A DNA stretch of 41,321 nucleotides from a virus (IMGVR_UViG_3300036944_000712:1-41321); one strand, 5' to 3'. Counted from the first letter of the stretch, positions 2,164 to 8,369 are shown. Numbers and translations: made by a program. The notes: generated from the letters alone by a model not told the origin.

Positions 2164-2202
2164 AAAAAGAAAGGAGATGCAGCTTTATCGCCACACCTCC
2201 TT
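2164..2202 (-). terminator. Rho-independent terminator after terC
   Basis: Nine-base-pair stem (arms 2194-2202 and 2171-2179, one G-U pair) followed on the minus strand by UCUUUUU. It lies 7 bases after the terC stop and closes the Ter module. The 3' half closely matches the plus-strand terminator at 30520-30554. Confidence 0.85.
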
Positions 2203-2208
2203 CAGATT

Positions 2209-2928
2209 TTAAACCACTGATACCGCTTTAGGTTTTAATTTCTTAGCTAATGCTAGACCAACTGTACATGTAGTTAACACTGTAGCAGCAAGTAATGCAG
2301 AAGTATGATCAGTACCTAACCACGTTGCAATGAACGGCTCTTTAAGTAGCATTTCTGATCCGACAAAGGCAATCAATGCACCACCTAACCATACAATCAC
2401 TGGGAACTTCGCAATCAAAGCAATCAGACCTTTAGAAGCAAAGATGATGATTGGAATTGAAAGTAAGATACCGAACACTGTATAACCGAAAGCATGTGAA
2501 CCTGTACCTTCTGCTGCACCAACCAATGCTACTACGTTATCAAGTGACATTAACAGGTCGGCTGATACGATGGTAACTGCTGCTCCCCACATTGTTGTCT
2601 TTGCTTTAACACCGTGATCGCTGTCATCACCTCCACTTGATAGCATTCCGTATGCAAGGTAGATCAAGTAAGCACCTGCTACCAGCTTAACGAATGGTAG
2701 ACCAACCAACCAGAAACCAATGAACAAGAACAAGATTCGGGCTAAGATCGCACCTGCCGTACCGATGATAATCGCCTTGTTCCGCAGTTCAGGGGCTAAC
2801 ATGGCACAGGCTAAGGCAATCACAATGGCATTGTCTAAACCTAAGATCAAATCAATACCTACAACCTTTGCCAGTACGTCCCAATGCAAACTAATAAAGA
2901 ATGCTAAAATGTCGTATAAAAATTCCAT
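2209..2928 (-). CDS. terC: TerC-family integral membrane protein
   Basis: A 239-residue protein with seven or so hydrophobic segments. It carries the two acidic signatures of the TerC family: DLILGLDNA (Asp26, Asp32) in the first membrane segment and ADLLMSLDNVV (Asp124, Asp130) in a later one, separated by a hydrophilic loop near residues 98-112. TerC proteins are inner-membrane proteins linked to metal (Mn) export and to the tellurite/stress systems in which TerC partners with TerD and vWA proteins. Here terD and a vWA gene are directly upstream. The start ATG overlaps the vWA stop (TAATG), so translation is coupled. Cytoplasmic-membrane location is confident; its job during infection is unknown. 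Confidence 0.9.
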   Translation of the reverse strand: MEFLYDILAFFISLHWDVLAKVVGIDLILGLDNAIVIALACAMLAPELRNKAIIIGTAGAILARILFLFIGFWLVGLPFVKLVAGAYLIYLAYGMLSSGGDDSDHGVKAKTTMWGAAVTIVSADLLMSLDNVVALVGAAEGTGSHAFGYTVFGILLSIPIIIFASKGLIALIAKFPVIVWLGGALIAFVGSEMLLKEPFIATWLGTDHTSALLAATVLTTCTVGLALAKKLKPKAVSVV

Positions 2929-3719
2929 TATTTATTCATCCAAGTTACAAGCTGTGGAGCTGCAAGAAGTTGATCGTAAAGAGCTTCATCTGTGACGTTC
3001 GCAAGATTGCGTAGTTCAGCAGGTGTGTAGTTCAAGTACATTGCATAAGGCTGTTTAGCAAACGTCTGCAAGAAGTGAACTGGGCGGTCATTAATGCTAA
3101 TAAACACGATAAAGATATTATCTTGCATCAATTGCGATAAAACTGTTCGTGCTTCATGTTCGCTGTCAGGATCACCGTCTGTAATAAAGAAGAACAAGTG
3201 CTTATCGGCTGCTTTGCCCGTTGCAGGAGCTTGCTCTGTTACAACTTCAGACACCATCTTCGATTCAGTTTTACCAAACAGTTTACCGAAGAAGCCAGTT
3301 GCAGGTTGAGTTACCATTTTCTGAACAACTTTTGAAACTGTACTTTGTTCTCCCTGACAGCTTGCAACCATTAAACGGAAGGCATCTGCATAGTCAGTAG
3401 AACAACCCCCTACACCATTAATCGGCATGTGCTTTTCAATGTAGTTTGTAAAGTTGTTTGCAGTAATTTCAGGAAGGTGTTTAGCATTGCTTCCGAACGC
3501 ATAACTGTCAAGCACTTGGTCTTTATCAAAGAGCATCGAGAATGGTACGAAACGATTCAAGAGCTGCTGTGTGTAACCTGCGCGGTGTTCATCACGGAAC
3601 GAACCTGATACATCCATCACCATGTGTACTTGACATGGTAGGATACTGCCTACTTGGTTTTTTACTAAAGCAAATGATAGTGCTTGAGTAGATTTTTCTA
3701 AGTTAAACTGTAAAGCCAT
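2928..3719 (-). CDS. vWA-domain protein, TerF/TerY-like
   Basis: 263 residues. A complete metal-ion-dependent adhesion site is visible: DVSGS (Asp36, Ser38, Ser40), Thr108 in GGCSTDYADAF, and Asp181 in FFITDGDPDSEHEA. This is the TerF/TerY-like type of von Willebrand A domain found in Ter stress systems, where it is thought to bind metal and scaffold the complex. Residues 1-21 (MALQFNLEK...FALVKN) resemble the N-terminus of the TerD protein encoded two genes upstream. I chose ATG 3719, preceded by GGGAAG, rather than an ATG 11 codons earlier that lies inside the upstream gene. Confidence 0.85.
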   Translation of the reverse strand: MALQFNLEKSTQALSFALVKNQVGSILPCQVHMVMDVSGSFRDEHRAGYTQQLLNRFVPFSMLFDKDQVLDSYAFGSNAKHLPEITANNFTNYIEKHMPINGVGGCSTDYADAFRLMVASCQGEQSTVSKVVQKMVTQPATGFFGKLFGKTESKMVSEVVTEQAPATGKAADKHLFFFITDGDPDSEHEARTVLSQLMQDNIFIVFISINDRPVHFLQTFAKQPYAMYLNYTPAELRNLANVTDEALYDQLLAAPQLVTWMNK

Positions 3720-3720
3720 G

Positions 3721-3912
3721 TTATTTCTTCCCAAATCGTTTGTTAAATTCAACTACTGCACGGTCAGCCCATGCCAAAGGTGTATCAATTTTCGTTACTC
3801 GTGTGTCATTTGACACTGCAACAAGCATCCGACTCCAAAGATCACGTTCTTGAGCACGTAATATCTCTTCTTCGCGGGTATCTTGTGGAGCTTTAGTTAG
3901 ATCAAATTCCAA
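3721..3912 (-). CDS. Small Ter-module protein, 63 aa
   Basis: A 63-residue charged helical protein between terD and the vWA gene. It starts at TTG 3912 with AAGGAG six to seven bases before it. Its first residues (MEFDLTKAP) resemble the (L)QFNLTK motif that opens the neighbouring TerD and vWA proteins; the rest (EEEILRAQERDLWSRML) is a probable helix. No family is recognised. The position and the shared N-terminal peptide suggest it is a partner of the same complex. Confidence 0.65.
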   Translation of the reverse strand: MEFDLTKAPQDTREEEILRAQERDLWSRMLVAVSNDTRVTKIDTPLAWADRAVVEFNKRFGKK

Positions 3913-3925
3913 GTTTATCTCCTTA

Positions 3926-3952
3926 GTAAGAGCCTTGTAGTAAGACTCTTAC
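3926..3952 (-). other. Stem-loop between terD and the 63-aa gene
   Basis: Perfect 7-base-pair inverted repeat (GTAAGAG at 3926-3932, CTCTTAC at 3946-3952) with a 13-base loop and no U tract. It lies just upstream of the ribosome site of the 63-residue gene, so it may tune translation or mRNA stability rather than terminate. Confidence 0.45.
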
Positions 3953-3963
3953 CGTTTCATAAT

Positions 3964-4587
3964 TTATGCTAACAAGTTCAAAATATCTTGGAATGAACCG
4001 TTGATACCTACAGCGACAGGGTTGAAGTCCCAAGCACCTGTTTGAGCATTTTTGACAATTGAACCCATTTGAACCATATCGTACTGATCAAAGTCATGCG
4101 TCAAGTTTGCAGTCAAGAGAACAACACCAGCATCATCTTTAATAACGAGTTTAGCATTATCTACATCTTTAAACTTCACTTGCTGCGGTGGATGCGCTGT
4201 AACAAAGAAGCTAACTTCATCTACATCGGAAGGTAAGCGTGACATTTCAACTGTCATTACTTCGTCTGGCTGACGACCATCTACACTGATACCTGTACGT
4301 TTATCACCTAAATGCGACAAGCTTGCACAAGCATTTCGGAAAGCTGCTTTACTTCCTGCAAAGTTATTCAGTGAAGGGTTGTCAGTTTGAACTAACGTAG
4401 GGTTGTACGTTGATAAGCACATCTCGCTGTCTGTACAGCTACCAACACGTAAGCCCATTGCATGTGCATCTAAATCATGCTTCGAGTCCCAATACAGTTC
4501 AATGTGGAACTTGTGGTTTTTCGACAAAGCGAAAGCTAATGGTTTTGCACCTGCATCTTTTGTTAAGTTGAACTGTAAAGCAGCCAT
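3964..4587 (-). CDS. terD: TerD-family stress protein
   Basis: 207 residues matching the TerD (Ca2+-binding beta-sandwich) family: IELYWDSKHDLDAHA near residues 29-43, GDKRTG at 94-99, then DGRQPDEVMTVEMSRLPSDV (103-122) and the strand VSFFVTAH. TerD proteins bind calcium and work with TerC and vWA partners in tellurite, oxidative and phage-resistance phenotypes. The N-terminus MAALQFNLTK...FALSKN is shared with the vWA protein. It starts at ATG 4587 with a weak AAGGAA site. The product is expected to be cytoplasmic and to associate with the TerC membrane protein. Confidence 0.88.
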   Translation of the reverse strand: MAALQFNLTKDAGAKPLAFALSKNHKFHIELYWDSKHDLDAHAMGLRVGSCTDSEMCLSTYNPTLVQTDNPSLNNFAGSKAAFRNACASLSHLGDKRTGISVDGRQPDEVMTVEMSRLPSDVDEVSFFVTAHPPQQVKFKDVDNAKLVIKDDAGVVLLTANLTHDFDQYDMVQMGSIVKNAQTGAWDFNPVAVGINGSFQDILNLLA

Positions 4588-4623
4588 GTTATTTCCTTAA
4601 ATTTGTAGTATTAAATCAGTTTT

Positions 4624-4662
4624 GAATTTAATGGTGTAGCCTAGAGCATTCTAAACTACACC
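4624..4662 (-). terminator. Possible weak terminator or stem-loop
   Basis: Seven-base-pair stem GGTGTAG / CTACACC (4656-4662 with 4633-4639) with a 16-base loop, followed on the minus strand by an AU-rich stretch but no true U run. It lies 7 bases after the stop of the coiled-coil gene and may only partly reduce read-through into terD. Confidence 0.4.
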
Positions 4663-4669
4663 CGAAGAA

Positions 4670-5320
4670 TTACTTGTTAGTGTTTACCACTACACCAGAA
4701 GCGTTTGAACGGTGTTCTTCGATTGTTACACGAGCTTCACGTTCTTTCTTCAAGTCTTCACGAGACTGGTCAAGGTTGGTTTGAAGCAAGTCAATCGTTT
4801 TCGCGTCAGAAGTAGCTTGCGCTGTAAACTGAGCGATTTTAATTTTGTTGTCAGCTACAACAGCGTCCAATGCACGTTCTGCTTTAGCTTCAGCGCGTTC
4901 AACTGCGTCATTAACTGCTTCTTGCAATTTTTCAGAGTTGTCTTGCTGAGCAATATTCAGATTATGGTAAACATCTTCTAAAGCTTCTTTTTTAATTTCC
5001 GCTAAACCGAACTCTTTAAGAAGTTCTTTCAGTGTTGCTTCTTTGTTGTCACGAACTTTAATCTTCAACTGGTAGTTAAGATCATCTACCTTTTGCTCAT
5101 GCTCTTTAGTAAGAGAGTTCAAGACACTTTGCTTGTCCTGCACCTGCTCAGAAAGATTCGATAGGTTTTGAACAGCAGCGTTCACTTCAGCGTTTAGACC
5201 AGCAACAACAGTATTAACGACTTTTTCTACACCAGAAGCTGCGGTTACTAACGCTTTAGTAGTACGTTCAGCGATAAGGTTTTGAGTAGTAACAGCGTCT
5301 GTAGTTTTAGCAGTAGTCAT
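4670..5320 (-). CDS. Coiled-coil protein of the Ter module, 216 aa
   Basis: Mostly alpha-helical, Ala/Glu/Lys-rich and strongly coiled-coil from about residue 30 to 205 (for example NLSEQVQDKQSVLNSLTKEH and NLDQSREDLKKEREARVTIE). No membrane segment or catalytic motif. The gene lies between telA-like and terD and has its own promoter-like element at 5389-5417. A structural or scaffolding role beside the TelA-like and TerD proteins is inferred from position only. AGGAGATACACC precedes the ATG. Confidence 0.75.
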   Translation of the reverse strand: MTTAKTTDAVTTQNLIAERTTKALVTAASGVEKVVNTVVAGLNAEVNAAVQNLSNLSEQVQDKQSVLNSLTKEHEQKVDDLNYQLKIKVRDNKEATLKELLKEFGLAEIKKEALEDVYHNLNIAQQDNSEKLQEAVNDAVERAEAKAERALDAVVADNKIKIAQFTAQATSDAKTIDLLQTNLDQSREDLKKEREARVTIEEHRSNASGVVVNTNK

Positions 5321-5380
5321 GGTGTATCTCCTAGATATTAAGTTTAAGTTTCATGTAATTTGTGAAGCATCTCTTGCTTA

Positions 5381-5413
5381 CGAGGTGTATATTACTTGAT
5401 AAACATCACCTCG
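5381..5413. repeat. Inverted repeat around the promoter of the coiled-coil gene
   Basis: Perfect inverted repeat CGAGGTG (5381-5387) / CACCTCG (5407-5413), 19-base spacing. It encloses the -10 box and overlaps the -35 box of the minus-strand promoter. There is no U tract after it, so an operator is as likely as a terminator. A second small stem (AAGCA/TGCTT, 5365-5379) follows. Confidence 0.5.
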
Positions 5414-5417
5414 TCAA
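5389..5417 (-). promoter_or_regulatory. Sigma-70-like promoter
   Basis: Minus strand TTGACG, 17-base spacer, TAATAT. It would start transcription near 5382 and serve the coiled-coil gene and the downstream terD, vWA and terC genes. It lies just after the telA-like stop. Confidence 0.5.
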
Positions 5418-5427
5418 CAACTTTTTA

Positions 5428-6666
5428 TTAAATTTCTAAAATATTTTTAACATCTTCTGTAGCTTGTAGCAAGAGAGCAGATGCTTGGTCAATATTTTGC
5501 TTAGCTTCAGCTTTCACTGTTACTAAGTGGTTAGCAAACTGAGCAACTTCCGCTACTCGTTGAGTTACGCTTTCAGCTTCACGCAAACGCGCTTGGCTTG
5601 ATAACAATTCAGCTTTAACAGTCAGGTCATTTGTCACCTTCGTTGCTAAACTGGTTGAGTGTGCTTCTAAGTTTTGGGCTGCTTCAGTGCTCAATAAGGA
5701 CTTCTGAGCTGAAATTGCAATCCCAATCTGTAAAAGGTTAGAACGGATCATTGGGAAGCTGCTCTGACGAGTATTTTCTGCTTCCTTCATCAAGCTCTTA
5801 CACACTTTAATCAGGTTGTCGTTCTGTTGTACAGTCATAGGAAGCTGTAGCAAGGTTTTATGCAAGATTAAACGCTTATTTTGAATGTCTTCAAAGGTTC
5901 GTTCATAGCCTTGCAGCTTCTTATTAACAGTTAATTCAGTAAGCATACCTGCATTAACTGCTTTGTACTGGTCTAACTGGTTTTTGTACGAGTGTTCTAA
6001 GTACACCACTAAAGCAAACTGCTTACGCAACTGCATGAACGCATGGTAATAAACATCGAACGTACTTTCAAGAGTCTCAATATTCTTCTCTTGCAAGCGT
6101 TGTTTGTTTTCCAGTTCACGTTCAATCTTGGTCAGTTTAACTTCAAGAGCATTACCTCGTCCTGACAAGAGTTCCTGTAAGTCCGTCAATTGTTCACTGG
6201 TGAATTTCTTAACAAAGGAAGGTCGGAACATGGAGATTAGTCGCACCCAAAGCGGAGCTTTAGCATTACAAGCTTTCGTCCAGATACCCTCAAGATCAAC
6301 TTCAGTTACGTCTTTAGAAAGATCATCAAGCATTTCAAGCATACCTGCCGTTTCTACACCGTTCATTGCACTGGTAAACTTTTTGAGCTTTGTATTTAAA
6401 TCTGCAAACTCTGCTTTACCAATGTCTTGTACCGCTGTAAACGTCACTTTATCAATATCGTTGAAGCCTTTGTTCTGGAACACCGAATTGACGTACATTA
6501 GCTCTGTTTGATCAGGCTGCATTAACTTGTCAAAGCCTTGAGACACTAAAGCTGCCGTAATATCATCATTACGCGTCTGCTGATAAGTCGAAACTTGGTG
6601 TTGAATAGGATTTACGTCGATTGTGACAGTCTTTAAACGGTCAGCTAATGAAGTTGCAGGTTTCAT
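5428..6666 (-). CDS. TelA-like toxic anion resistance protein
   Basis: 412 residues, almost entirely helical. The region around residues 190-235 (LQEKNIETLESTFDVYYHAF) and the later QQNDNLIKVCKSLMKEAENT followed by a SFPMI segment and repeated Gln/Ala helices match the TelA/KlaA pattern, in which an apparent dynamin-like helical protein ends in a Q-N-rich helical core. TelA-family genes commonly accompany terC, terD and vWA genes, as here. The function is not known biochemically; membrane or envelope stress remodelling is proposed for relatives. AAGGAA lies before ATG 6666. The family call rests on pattern and neighbourhood. Confidence 0.72.
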   Translation of the reverse strand: MKPATSLADRLKTVTIDVNPIQHQVSTYQQTRNDDITAALVSQGFDKLMQPDQTELMYVNSVFQNKGFNDIDKVTFTAVQDIGKAEFADLNTKLKKFTSAMNGVETAGMLEMLDDLSKDVTEVDLEGIWTKACNAKAPLWVRLISMFRPSFVKKFTSEQLTDLQELLSGRGNALEVKLTKIERELENKQRLQEKNIETLESTFDVYYHAFMQLRKQFALVVYLEHSYKNQLDQYKAVNAGMLTELTVNKKLQGYERTFEDIQNKRLILHKTLLQLPMTVQQNDNLIKVCKSLMKEAENTRQSSFPMIRSNLLQIGIAISAQKSLLSTEAAQNLEAHSTSLATKVTNDLTVKAELLSSQARLREAESVTQRVAEVAQFANHLVTVKAEAKQNIDQASALLLQATEDVKNILEI

Positions 6667-6675
6667 GTGTTTTCC

Positions 6676-6930
6676 TTATGCTGCAAAGTAAGTGAAAGCA
6701 GGTTTTAAGTGCTTGAGTTCGATTGTACCAAAGTTTGATGTAACACCTGTAATGCCAGTTAAAGGCGTAAGACCTTCGACTTCTACAGCTTGTTCGTAGT
6801 GGTAGTGCAAGATACGCAACGGTTTGGTGTGAATCTTAGCAACACGTACAATTTTACCAATGTTATGGTCATTACGACCACCGATAATGACCGCTAAATC
6901 ACCTTTGTTTAAGTGTATTTTCTGTTTCAT
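6676..6930 (-). CDS. SH3/KOW-like small protein, 84 aa
   Basis: All-beta 84-residue protein. GDLAVIIGGRNDHNIGKIVR near residues 10-29 has the hydrophobic-Gly pattern of a KOW/SH3-like barrel and matches GAFAVISVGATDEQNVGKVV in the protein encoded at 10676-11059. Such small barrels often bind nucleic acid or protein partners, but no function can be assigned. The start ATG overlaps the stop of the upstream gene (ATGA), so the pair is translationally coupled. It is followed by the telA-like gene after 9 bases. Confidence 0.75.
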   Translation of the reverse strand: MKQKIHLNKGDLAVIIGGRNDHNIGKIVRVAKIHTKPLRILHYHYEQAVEVEGLTPLTGITGVTSNFGTIELKHLKPAFTYFAA

Positions 6931-7133
6931 GCTTCTTTCCCAACCTGTAAATCAATTTCTTCTAAATCTTTTAGAAGACCCCAAGAGTAACAACCACTGT
7001 TTTGTGTATGACATACACGGCAAGAACCATCGTCTTTTACTTCCACTAAAGTAACGATATTACTCCAATGTTCAGGAAGATCAAAAGATGTACTCCCACC
7101 TTTGATACGGCATTTCTCATTGATCTGTACCAT
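6927..7133 (-). CDS. Hypothetical protein, 68 aa
   Basis: Short beta-rich protein with three Cys (residues near 8, 38 and 48) and a WSNIVTLVEVKDDGSCRV segment that again looks SH3-like. AGAGG precedes ATG 7133. It sits between a 34-residue Cys-rich gene and the SH3/KOW-like gene and is coupled to the latter. No known family recognised. Confidence 0.7.
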   Translation of the reverse strand: MVQINEKCRIKGGSTSFDLPEHWSNIVTLVEVKDDGSCRVCHTQNSGCYSWGLLKDLEEIDLQVGKEA

Positions 7134-7313: not shown

Positions 7314-8369
7314 TTACTTGAACATTTTTAAGCGTTCTTCAAGATTAAACTTCCAGCAGGTGTTATATGGTAGTAAGTGTCGATATGATACCCAACCTGT
7401 TAAATTACCTGATCCAAAGCGTCCATCGCGTCGAAGATGTGTGATACCTTCTTGCCATGTGTTAGGGGAAGCTGCATTATTTATAGCGTAGACATAAACA
7501 CCACCTGATTCTAAACGCTTCTCCAGCCCTTCCTTCTTAACAGGTGTAGCTAAATGCCCGAATGGAGAAGCATGTAAAACATCTGCACCAATAAGCATAT
7601 CAAAGATTTTATCAGCTTTCTCTAAGCTGTCATCACTCTTACGATACGAAGTCTGAGCACAACAAGAAGCAGAAATACGTTGAGCTTCTTCCAAAGAATG
7701 CCACTGGAAGGTATCTGTACCAACTTCACCTGTATGGTAGCGTAATGTGCCTTCAATTGCATTACCAAACTCATCAATTCCATAGCTAGAATCTACATAA
7801 GGAAGATGCCATTCACCATCGCGTAGTAAGGTAGGTTCACTATCCTTCATTGCCATGTAAATCTTGTAAGCAAGCATACAAAATTCAGGTTGAGCGTCTG
7901 GATGAATACGAAGATTAAAGAAGTTATCCCAGTCTGTTGCAGTCATTACCGTTTTCATCATCTGGAACGGTTCTAACAAGCGATTTGTCGATTGTTTATG
8001 CAAGTTACAAGCTAAATCTAGCTGAGTTGCATAGAAAATCGCATCGTTCTGCGCTGCATTCCACAAGTCAGTCGCACAGGCTAGGTTTTCAATCTCTTCA
8101 CCAGCTTGCATTCCAGACTTCTTACTACCCCAGTACAAAGGTTTACCACCATTCATAATGATCTGAGCAATAATTTCTTTAATTGGAATAGCACGACTTG
8201 AGCTGCTGTTCTTTTCAATAGAACTGTGAGTGTTCACTTCACCAAGAATGAAGCGAGGGTATTCAGCTTCAATCGTAGTAATACGCGCACCTGCTGCTGT
8301 AATGCTGTCGCAGACCACTCTAGCTGTGATATTAGTAAGACGTTCAAAGAACTCTTTAGTTAAAGCCAC
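7314..8369 (-). CDS. thyX: ThyX-like flavin-dependent thymidylate synthase
   Basis: 351 residues, longer than typical bacterial ThyX (about 220-250) but usual for phage forms. THSSIEKNSSSSRAIP at residues 47-62 aligns with the phage form THRxxSRNxxSSRAIP of the ThyX motif, with Ser49 in place of the second Arg and Glu52 in place of Ser. RLLEPFQMM...MTATDWDNFFNLRIHPDAQPE fits the conserved substrate region. The enzyme would make dTMP from dUMP with FAD, NADPH and methylene-tetrahydrofolate, complementing the ribonucleotide reductase on the other strand. Start GTG 8369 has AAGGAAG before it and overlaps no other codon. The altered motif may change activity. Confidence 0.8.
   Translation of the reverse strand: MALTKEFFERLTNITARVVCDSITAAGARITTIEAEYPRFILGEVNTHSSIEKNSSSSRAIPIKEIIAQIIMNGGKPLYWGSKKSGMQAGEEIENLACATDLWNAAQNDAIFYATQLDLACNLHKQSTNRLLEPFQMMKTVMTATDWDNFFNLRIHPDAQPEFCMLAYKIYMAMKDSEPTLLRDGEWHLPYVDSSYGIDEFGNAIEGTLRYHTGEVGTDTFQWHSLEEAQRISASCCAQTSYRKSDDSLEKADKIFDMLIGADVLHASPFGHLATPVKKEGLEKRLESGGVYVYAINNAASPNTWQEGITHLRRDGRFGSGNLTGWVSYRHLLPYNTCWKFNLEERLKMFK

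Follow-up and report, generated by a model that had tools for sequence, protein, structure and literature searches.

How the widespread Ter genes act is a long-standing question. In jumbo phages, abbreviated operons of TerD, TerC, TerF and TelA have been described, for which superinfection exclusion was proposed (Iyer 2021; PMC7824862), and terC, terD, terF and telA are listed in the paper on PhiPsa374, in which a role in tellurite resistance was doubted (PMC9796965). We found sets of TelA, vWA, TerC and TerD in Otagovirus, Stephanstirmvirinae, Dolichocephalovirinae, Rhizobium phages and others, with hosts that include Caulobacter, Brevundimonas, Pseudomonas, E. coli and Rhizobium, and a related Ter set in Acinetobacter phage ME3. 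In several phages (L005, L006, L007 and L012) the Ter genes have NAD-salvage genes nearby, among them that for nicotinamide phosphoribosyltransferase. Proteins of the TerC family act at the membrane in the export or loading of Mn (PMC10550928); in K. pneumoniae, terC helps the cell to tolerate tellurite and zinc and plaques are larger once it is deleted, and TerC–TerD has been cited as the minimal functional tellurite unit (PMC12054061).

The DNA analysed here, termed the window, is a linear IMG/VR virus record of 41,321 bases (IMGVR_UViG_3300036944_000712:1-41321), probably a fragment, which also encodes ThyX, a primase/helicase, a DNA polymerase, a ribonucleotide reductase and a tape measure protein of 2,225 aa. 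An ORF at 12960-13439 matches PHROG 478, annotated as a recombination directionality factor (E 1.6e-51). ORF calling returned six ORFs on the minus strand where the original prediction had placed a phage-borne Ter set, and that set was correctly recognized: profile HMMs recovered TerC of the YjbE type, a TerF-type vWA protein and TerD. The further suggestion that the composition of the set may be new was mostly wrong, as the core has been seen in phages before and conservation does not extend to the two unnamed proteins. The Ter genes are bounded by the thyX terminator (7309-7276) and by an intrinsic terminator after terC (2203-2170, minus strand), which is a hairpin with a 14-pair stem and a U-run (z -5.4), as had been predicted. 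The gaps between the genes had been described as overlapping or near-zero, but three of the five are larger (measured 107, 82, 51, 1 and -1 bp). These three are filled by RNA hairpins without U-tracts, possibly processing or stability elements: one of z -2.3 in the 107 bp upstream of the coiled-coil gene (5321-5427), a strong one of z -4.9 in the 82 bp downstream of that gene (4588-4669) and one of z -4.8 at 3913-3963. The 107-bp gap also has a weak promoter-like site (TTGACG-17-TAATAT, 9/12), although such matches overall were not above chance. Downstream of the thyX terminator and upstream of the TelA-like gene are two small minus-strand ORFs of 68 and 84 aa (6676-7133; an overlap, and a 9-bp gap to the TelA-like gene), which are probably on the same transcript as the cassette and had no Pfam matches. 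Each of the three cassettes of this type has a thymidylate synthase gene a few genes upstream (ThyX at 7314-8369 of the window, L002:9776-10678 and L013:6191-7078), and a small Ser/Lys/Pro-rich protein with a lipoprotein-like signal is encoded directly past the terC terminator (1843-2148).

The assignment of the core proteins was clear. TerC (2209-2928, minus strand) is an integral membrane protein with two LDN motifs that matched PF03741 (E 2.5e-41, 142 bits against a cut-off of 27.8) and was placed in the YjbE subfamily by TIGR03717 (174 bits against 134.8); it is 60% identical to its counterpart in Acinetobacter phage vB_AciJM_313 (PX050566; phage 313). The TerF-type vWA protein of 263 aa (2928-3719, minus strand) matched PF10138 (E 1.8e-24, 87.5 bits against 29.4); a TTG start at 3752 was replaced by the ATG at 3719 as the best placement. 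Its metal ion-dependent adhesion site, MIDAS, is intact as predicted, with D36-x-S38-x-S40, T108 and D181 all present and invariant in relatives, and a single-sequence structure model of the protein was poor and unusable (pLDDT 45). The TerD-domain protein of 207 aa (3964-4587, minus strand) is clear yet divergent (PF02342, E 6.9e-14, 52 bits against 25.3; 56% identical to the phage 313 counterpart), with its N-terminal portion lying outside the Pfam alignment. The calcium signatures of TerD, which had been called intact, are so only in part, as the GD.RTG and DLD motifs are kept but the GDGDDE loop seen in the solved structure of TerD, 2KXT, is replaced by VDGRQPDE.

The fourth core protein, of 412 aa (5428-6666, minus strand), is the one for which the HMM searches did not bear out the prediction: the Pfam TelA model (PF05816) gave no matches for the proteins of the window, phage 313 or L013, which are nonetheless related to one another (42.5% identity of the window protein to phage 313 and 48% to L013). 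The original label holds in the sense of a remote relationship. The family of these three proteins aligned with a bacterial helical family (hhalign 98.6%, E 1e-15), and that bacterial family aligned in turn with canonical phage TelA (95.3%, E 2e-8), whereas direct comparison of the window family with canonical TelA gave a probability of only 1-2%, so that the bacterial intermediate alone rescues the link. The predicted structure, a moderate model (pLDDT 66), consists entirely of helices, two of them about 90-105 residues long, and its best viral fold matches were proteins named as toxic anion or tellurite resistance proteins (E 9e-5 to 2e-4, TM about 0.4-0.45); a fold search of the PDB gave no match with E<=0.001, its results being only generic helical bundles and helical pore formers. 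As both the intermediate family and the viral fold search connect the 412-aa family to TelA, the name TelA-like is reasonable, inferred as it is through the bacterial proteins.

The bacterial helical family belongs to an operon that is kin to the window set. When the helical protein of L026 was searched against one genome each of 84,980 prokaryote species, 24 bacterial loci were recovered in alpha- and beta-proteobacteria and Chloroflexi, nearly all with the genes for helical protein, TerD, a protein termed X358 and vWA in that order; the helical and X358 proteins are annotated as hypothetical in RefSeq. L026 itself (MT836679.1) is a GenBank entry named "Bacteriophage sp.", but its ter operon shares 99-100% identity with a Rhizobiales contig; the entry is probably bacterial DNA in a phage record and was excluded as a phage from the trees. 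In these trees, in which long branches were flagged and canonical bacterial TerD and vWA were left out, TerD of the window, phage 313 and L013 joined TerD of the bacterial operon (support 100/100) and the vWA proteins did likewise (support 97/93), in both cases apart from 15 other phage modules. A vWA signature common to the branch, DVSGSF..EH..G.T, agrees with the tree, as does the common gene order. The window set belongs to a divergent branch whose nearest kin, rather than the ordinary ter module of phages, is an unnamed bacterial operon, a relationship that seems to be new. Of the 24 bacterial loci, 11 had a gene for a metal P-type ATPase, a CDF protein or an Nramp-like transporter within the fetched flanks (one P-type match is truncated at the end of its contig), and in Agrobacterium a plasmid-borne copy of the operon adjoins both a P-type ATPase and a CDF gene. 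We would expect this proximity to be well above background. When parts of phage 313 were compared with the window, only the Ter genes were strongly alike (43-60%), with the remainder weak or absent; the cassette therefore appears to move between different phages. We note that in the bacterial operon (L029-L052) the helical protein and X358 have in common a short motif at the N-terminus, [KR]PTxI, which in some cases is repeated, and that the TelA-like proteins of phage 313 and the window start MKPT and MKPAT respectively; this motif is possibly a second tag, in addition to the one described below.

Two further proteins encoded within the same-strand run had been taken as parts of the module, and it could be argued that they are true components of a new six-part system. 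Both are absent from the modules of the nearest relatives. The gene for the 216-aa coiled-coil protein (4670-5320, minus strand; PHROG 9325, E 1.4e-34) is missing between the TelA-like and TerD genes in L013 and in phage 313, where the gap is 13 bp. Its family is common in phages (88 phage records), and in the two neighbourhoods inspected, those of Escherichia phage 4MG and Salmonella phage FSL SP-058, the homologue sits among tRNA genes; neither TerD nor TerC was found in either of these genomes. Phage FSL SP-058 does have a lone TerB away from its coiled-coil gene. Scans of IMG/VR with TerD alone and with the coiled-coil protein yielded nothing. Given its absence from the two closest modules, its standalone occurrence elsewhere and the hairpin-containing gaps of 107 and 82 bp on both sides, the coiled-coil gene is probably an unrelated insertion rather than a module component. 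The 63-aa soluble protein (3721-3912, minus strand; TTG start, AAGGAG Shine–Dalgarno sequence; phrog_13068, E 0.003) occupies a variable slot, filled by a membrane peptide in phage 313 and L013, so that the phage 313 peptide was rejected as a homologue, and by X358 (320-360 aa) in bacteria. By this comparison it is accessory and not conserved. It does carry a sequence, EFDLTK, that resembles the TerD and vWA tags, but overall we consider a six-part system very unlikely.

The tags in question are at the N-termini of TerD (ALQFNLTK..LAFALSK in the window) and vWA (ALQFNLEK..LSFALVK), which share a two-strand motif of the form LxFxLxK...LxLxK; the vWA tag resembles the start of a TerD domain. In a comparison of 11-14 lineages, the TerD tag closest to that of vWA was the one from the same genome, with a permutation p of about 5e-5 to 1.5e-4 in a test that ignores residual relatedness among lineages; L026 contributed one row to this first test and was absent from the later one. 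Over the first 11 residues the within-genome vWA–TerD score was 22.7, compared with orthologue scores of 15.5 and 16.5, and the own pair exceeded the mean orthologue pair in 11/11 genomes and was ahead in 8/9 of a stricter set (p 7e-5). Orthologue scores catch up over 25-31 residues and the effect is therefore concentrated at the very start of the proteins. Controls with other protein regions and with shuffled tags were negative, and amino-acid composition was rejected as the cause, as shuffled N-termini gave no effect. Nor would an old duplication followed by independent drift produce the observed pattern. Recent gene conversion was ruled out overall: identical tag residues shared codons in 50 of 79 cases against 44.4 expected, with no overall excess, which argues for selection on the tag peptide rather than recent copying. 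In the window itself 6/7 codons are identical against 2.9 expected, and here a recent copy of the tag is possible. The covariation of the TerD and vWA tags seems to be a new observation. One explanation, which we advance tentatively and rate as somewhat short of probable, is that the tags act as an assembly code, in which a beta-strand address private to each genome would bring TerD and vWA into one complex, in the phages and in the bacterial sister operon, and other small proteins could be recruited by gaining the tag. The 63-aa protein may have been recruited in this way, although its tag is only suggestive because the pattern occurs in about 1% of unrelated ORFs. In Vibrio phage D69 (L011:5844-8367), three tandem TerD-like proteins have repeated LNFxK motifs at their N-termini.

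What might such a complex do for a phage? The proposal that we favour, to which we would give slightly less than an even chance, is that this mobile and divergent cassette encodes a membrane complex for metal and envelope stress that protects the infected cell and possibly also excludes rivals. TerC in the host inner membrane would be a divalent-metal (Mn/Zn) exporter or metal-loading protein, a role suggested by the export or loading of Mn by TerC proteins and by the observed kinship with a bacterial operon that is often beside metal-transport genes. On the cytoplasmic side of TerC, the long-helix TelA-like protein, TerD and vWA could form a complex, held together by the N-terminal beta tags that match between TerD and vWA, to which the 63-aa protein may add its own, with vWA binding a ligand through its metal site. 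Expression of the cassette during infection would then keep the envelope and metal balance of the host workable until lysis, and exclusion of competing phages would likely be a side effect or second use.

Exclusion could instead be the primary function, with the cassette altering the inner membrane such that rival phages cannot establish and any metal effects being incidental. As well as having been raised in the original prediction and, before that, proposed for phage Ter sets (PMC7824862), this would fit with the finding that phages are inhibited less or not at all when bacterial terC, terD or terZ carries an insertion, and with the plaque enlargement on deletion of terC (PMC12054061). However, terF insertions were without effect on phage inhibition in the same study (PMC12054061) while a TerF-type vWA is regular in the phage sets; moreover, the bacterial sister operon accompanies metal genes and PADLOC matched no module protein. 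We regard exclusion as the main function as unlikely, if still a live alternative. Host ter operons are able to restrict phages (PMC12054061), and the phage TerD, vWA and TelA-like proteins might then be decoys that join and poison the host Ter complex. The tags common to TerD and vWA do suggest specific complexes, but each is matched to its partner in the phage itself, as would be expected of a self-contained complex more than of host mimicry, and the phage supplies its own TerC; counter-defence of this kind is in our view quite unlikely. That the cassette is passenger cargo of little function in the phage seems highly improbable, for its reading frames are intact, its metal-site residues are conserved and its tags coevolve across deep divergence, even though its distribution is patchy and it appears to be transferred between otherwise different phages.

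With the bacterial terZABCDEF operon the window set has TerC, TerD and a TerF-type vWA in common, but it includes a TelA-like protein, and no TerB was found within the window, probably a fragment, and only a single TerD-family gene; it is not a complete tellurite operon. The biosynthetic genes (PRTase/HAD) of complete Ter systems likewise appear to be missing from the set. The canonical phage Ter modules (Bertelyvirus, Otagovirus PhiPsa374 and Phapecoctavirus) share TelA, vWA, TerC and TerD with it, as well as the N-terminal tags of vWA and TerD. Unlike in the window, their order is often TelA-vWA-TerC-TerD and their TelA is seen by Pfam, and their TerD and vWA fall outside the branch of the window. 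Phages thus bear Ter cassettes of at least two branches, one of which is linked to metal-resistance islands. Closer is the cassette of phage 313, with the same order of TelA-like, TerD, small ORF, vWA and TerC, from which it differs in lacking the coiled-coil gene and in having an unrelated membrane peptide as the small ORF, in a genome that is otherwise mostly dissimilar. In the bacterial operon, of which Mesorhizobium, Sphingomonas and the Agrobacterium plasmid provide examples, a second helical-type protein replaces the small ORF and TerC is usually not adjacent, and perhaps the link to TerC is therefore specific to the phages. With a compact four-protein version of Ter, a sister operon in bacteria and a tag that covaries, the identity and assembly of the Ter complex become directly testable, and it is the sister operon that has the same gene order as the window set and provides the closest relatives of its TerD, vWA and helical proteins.
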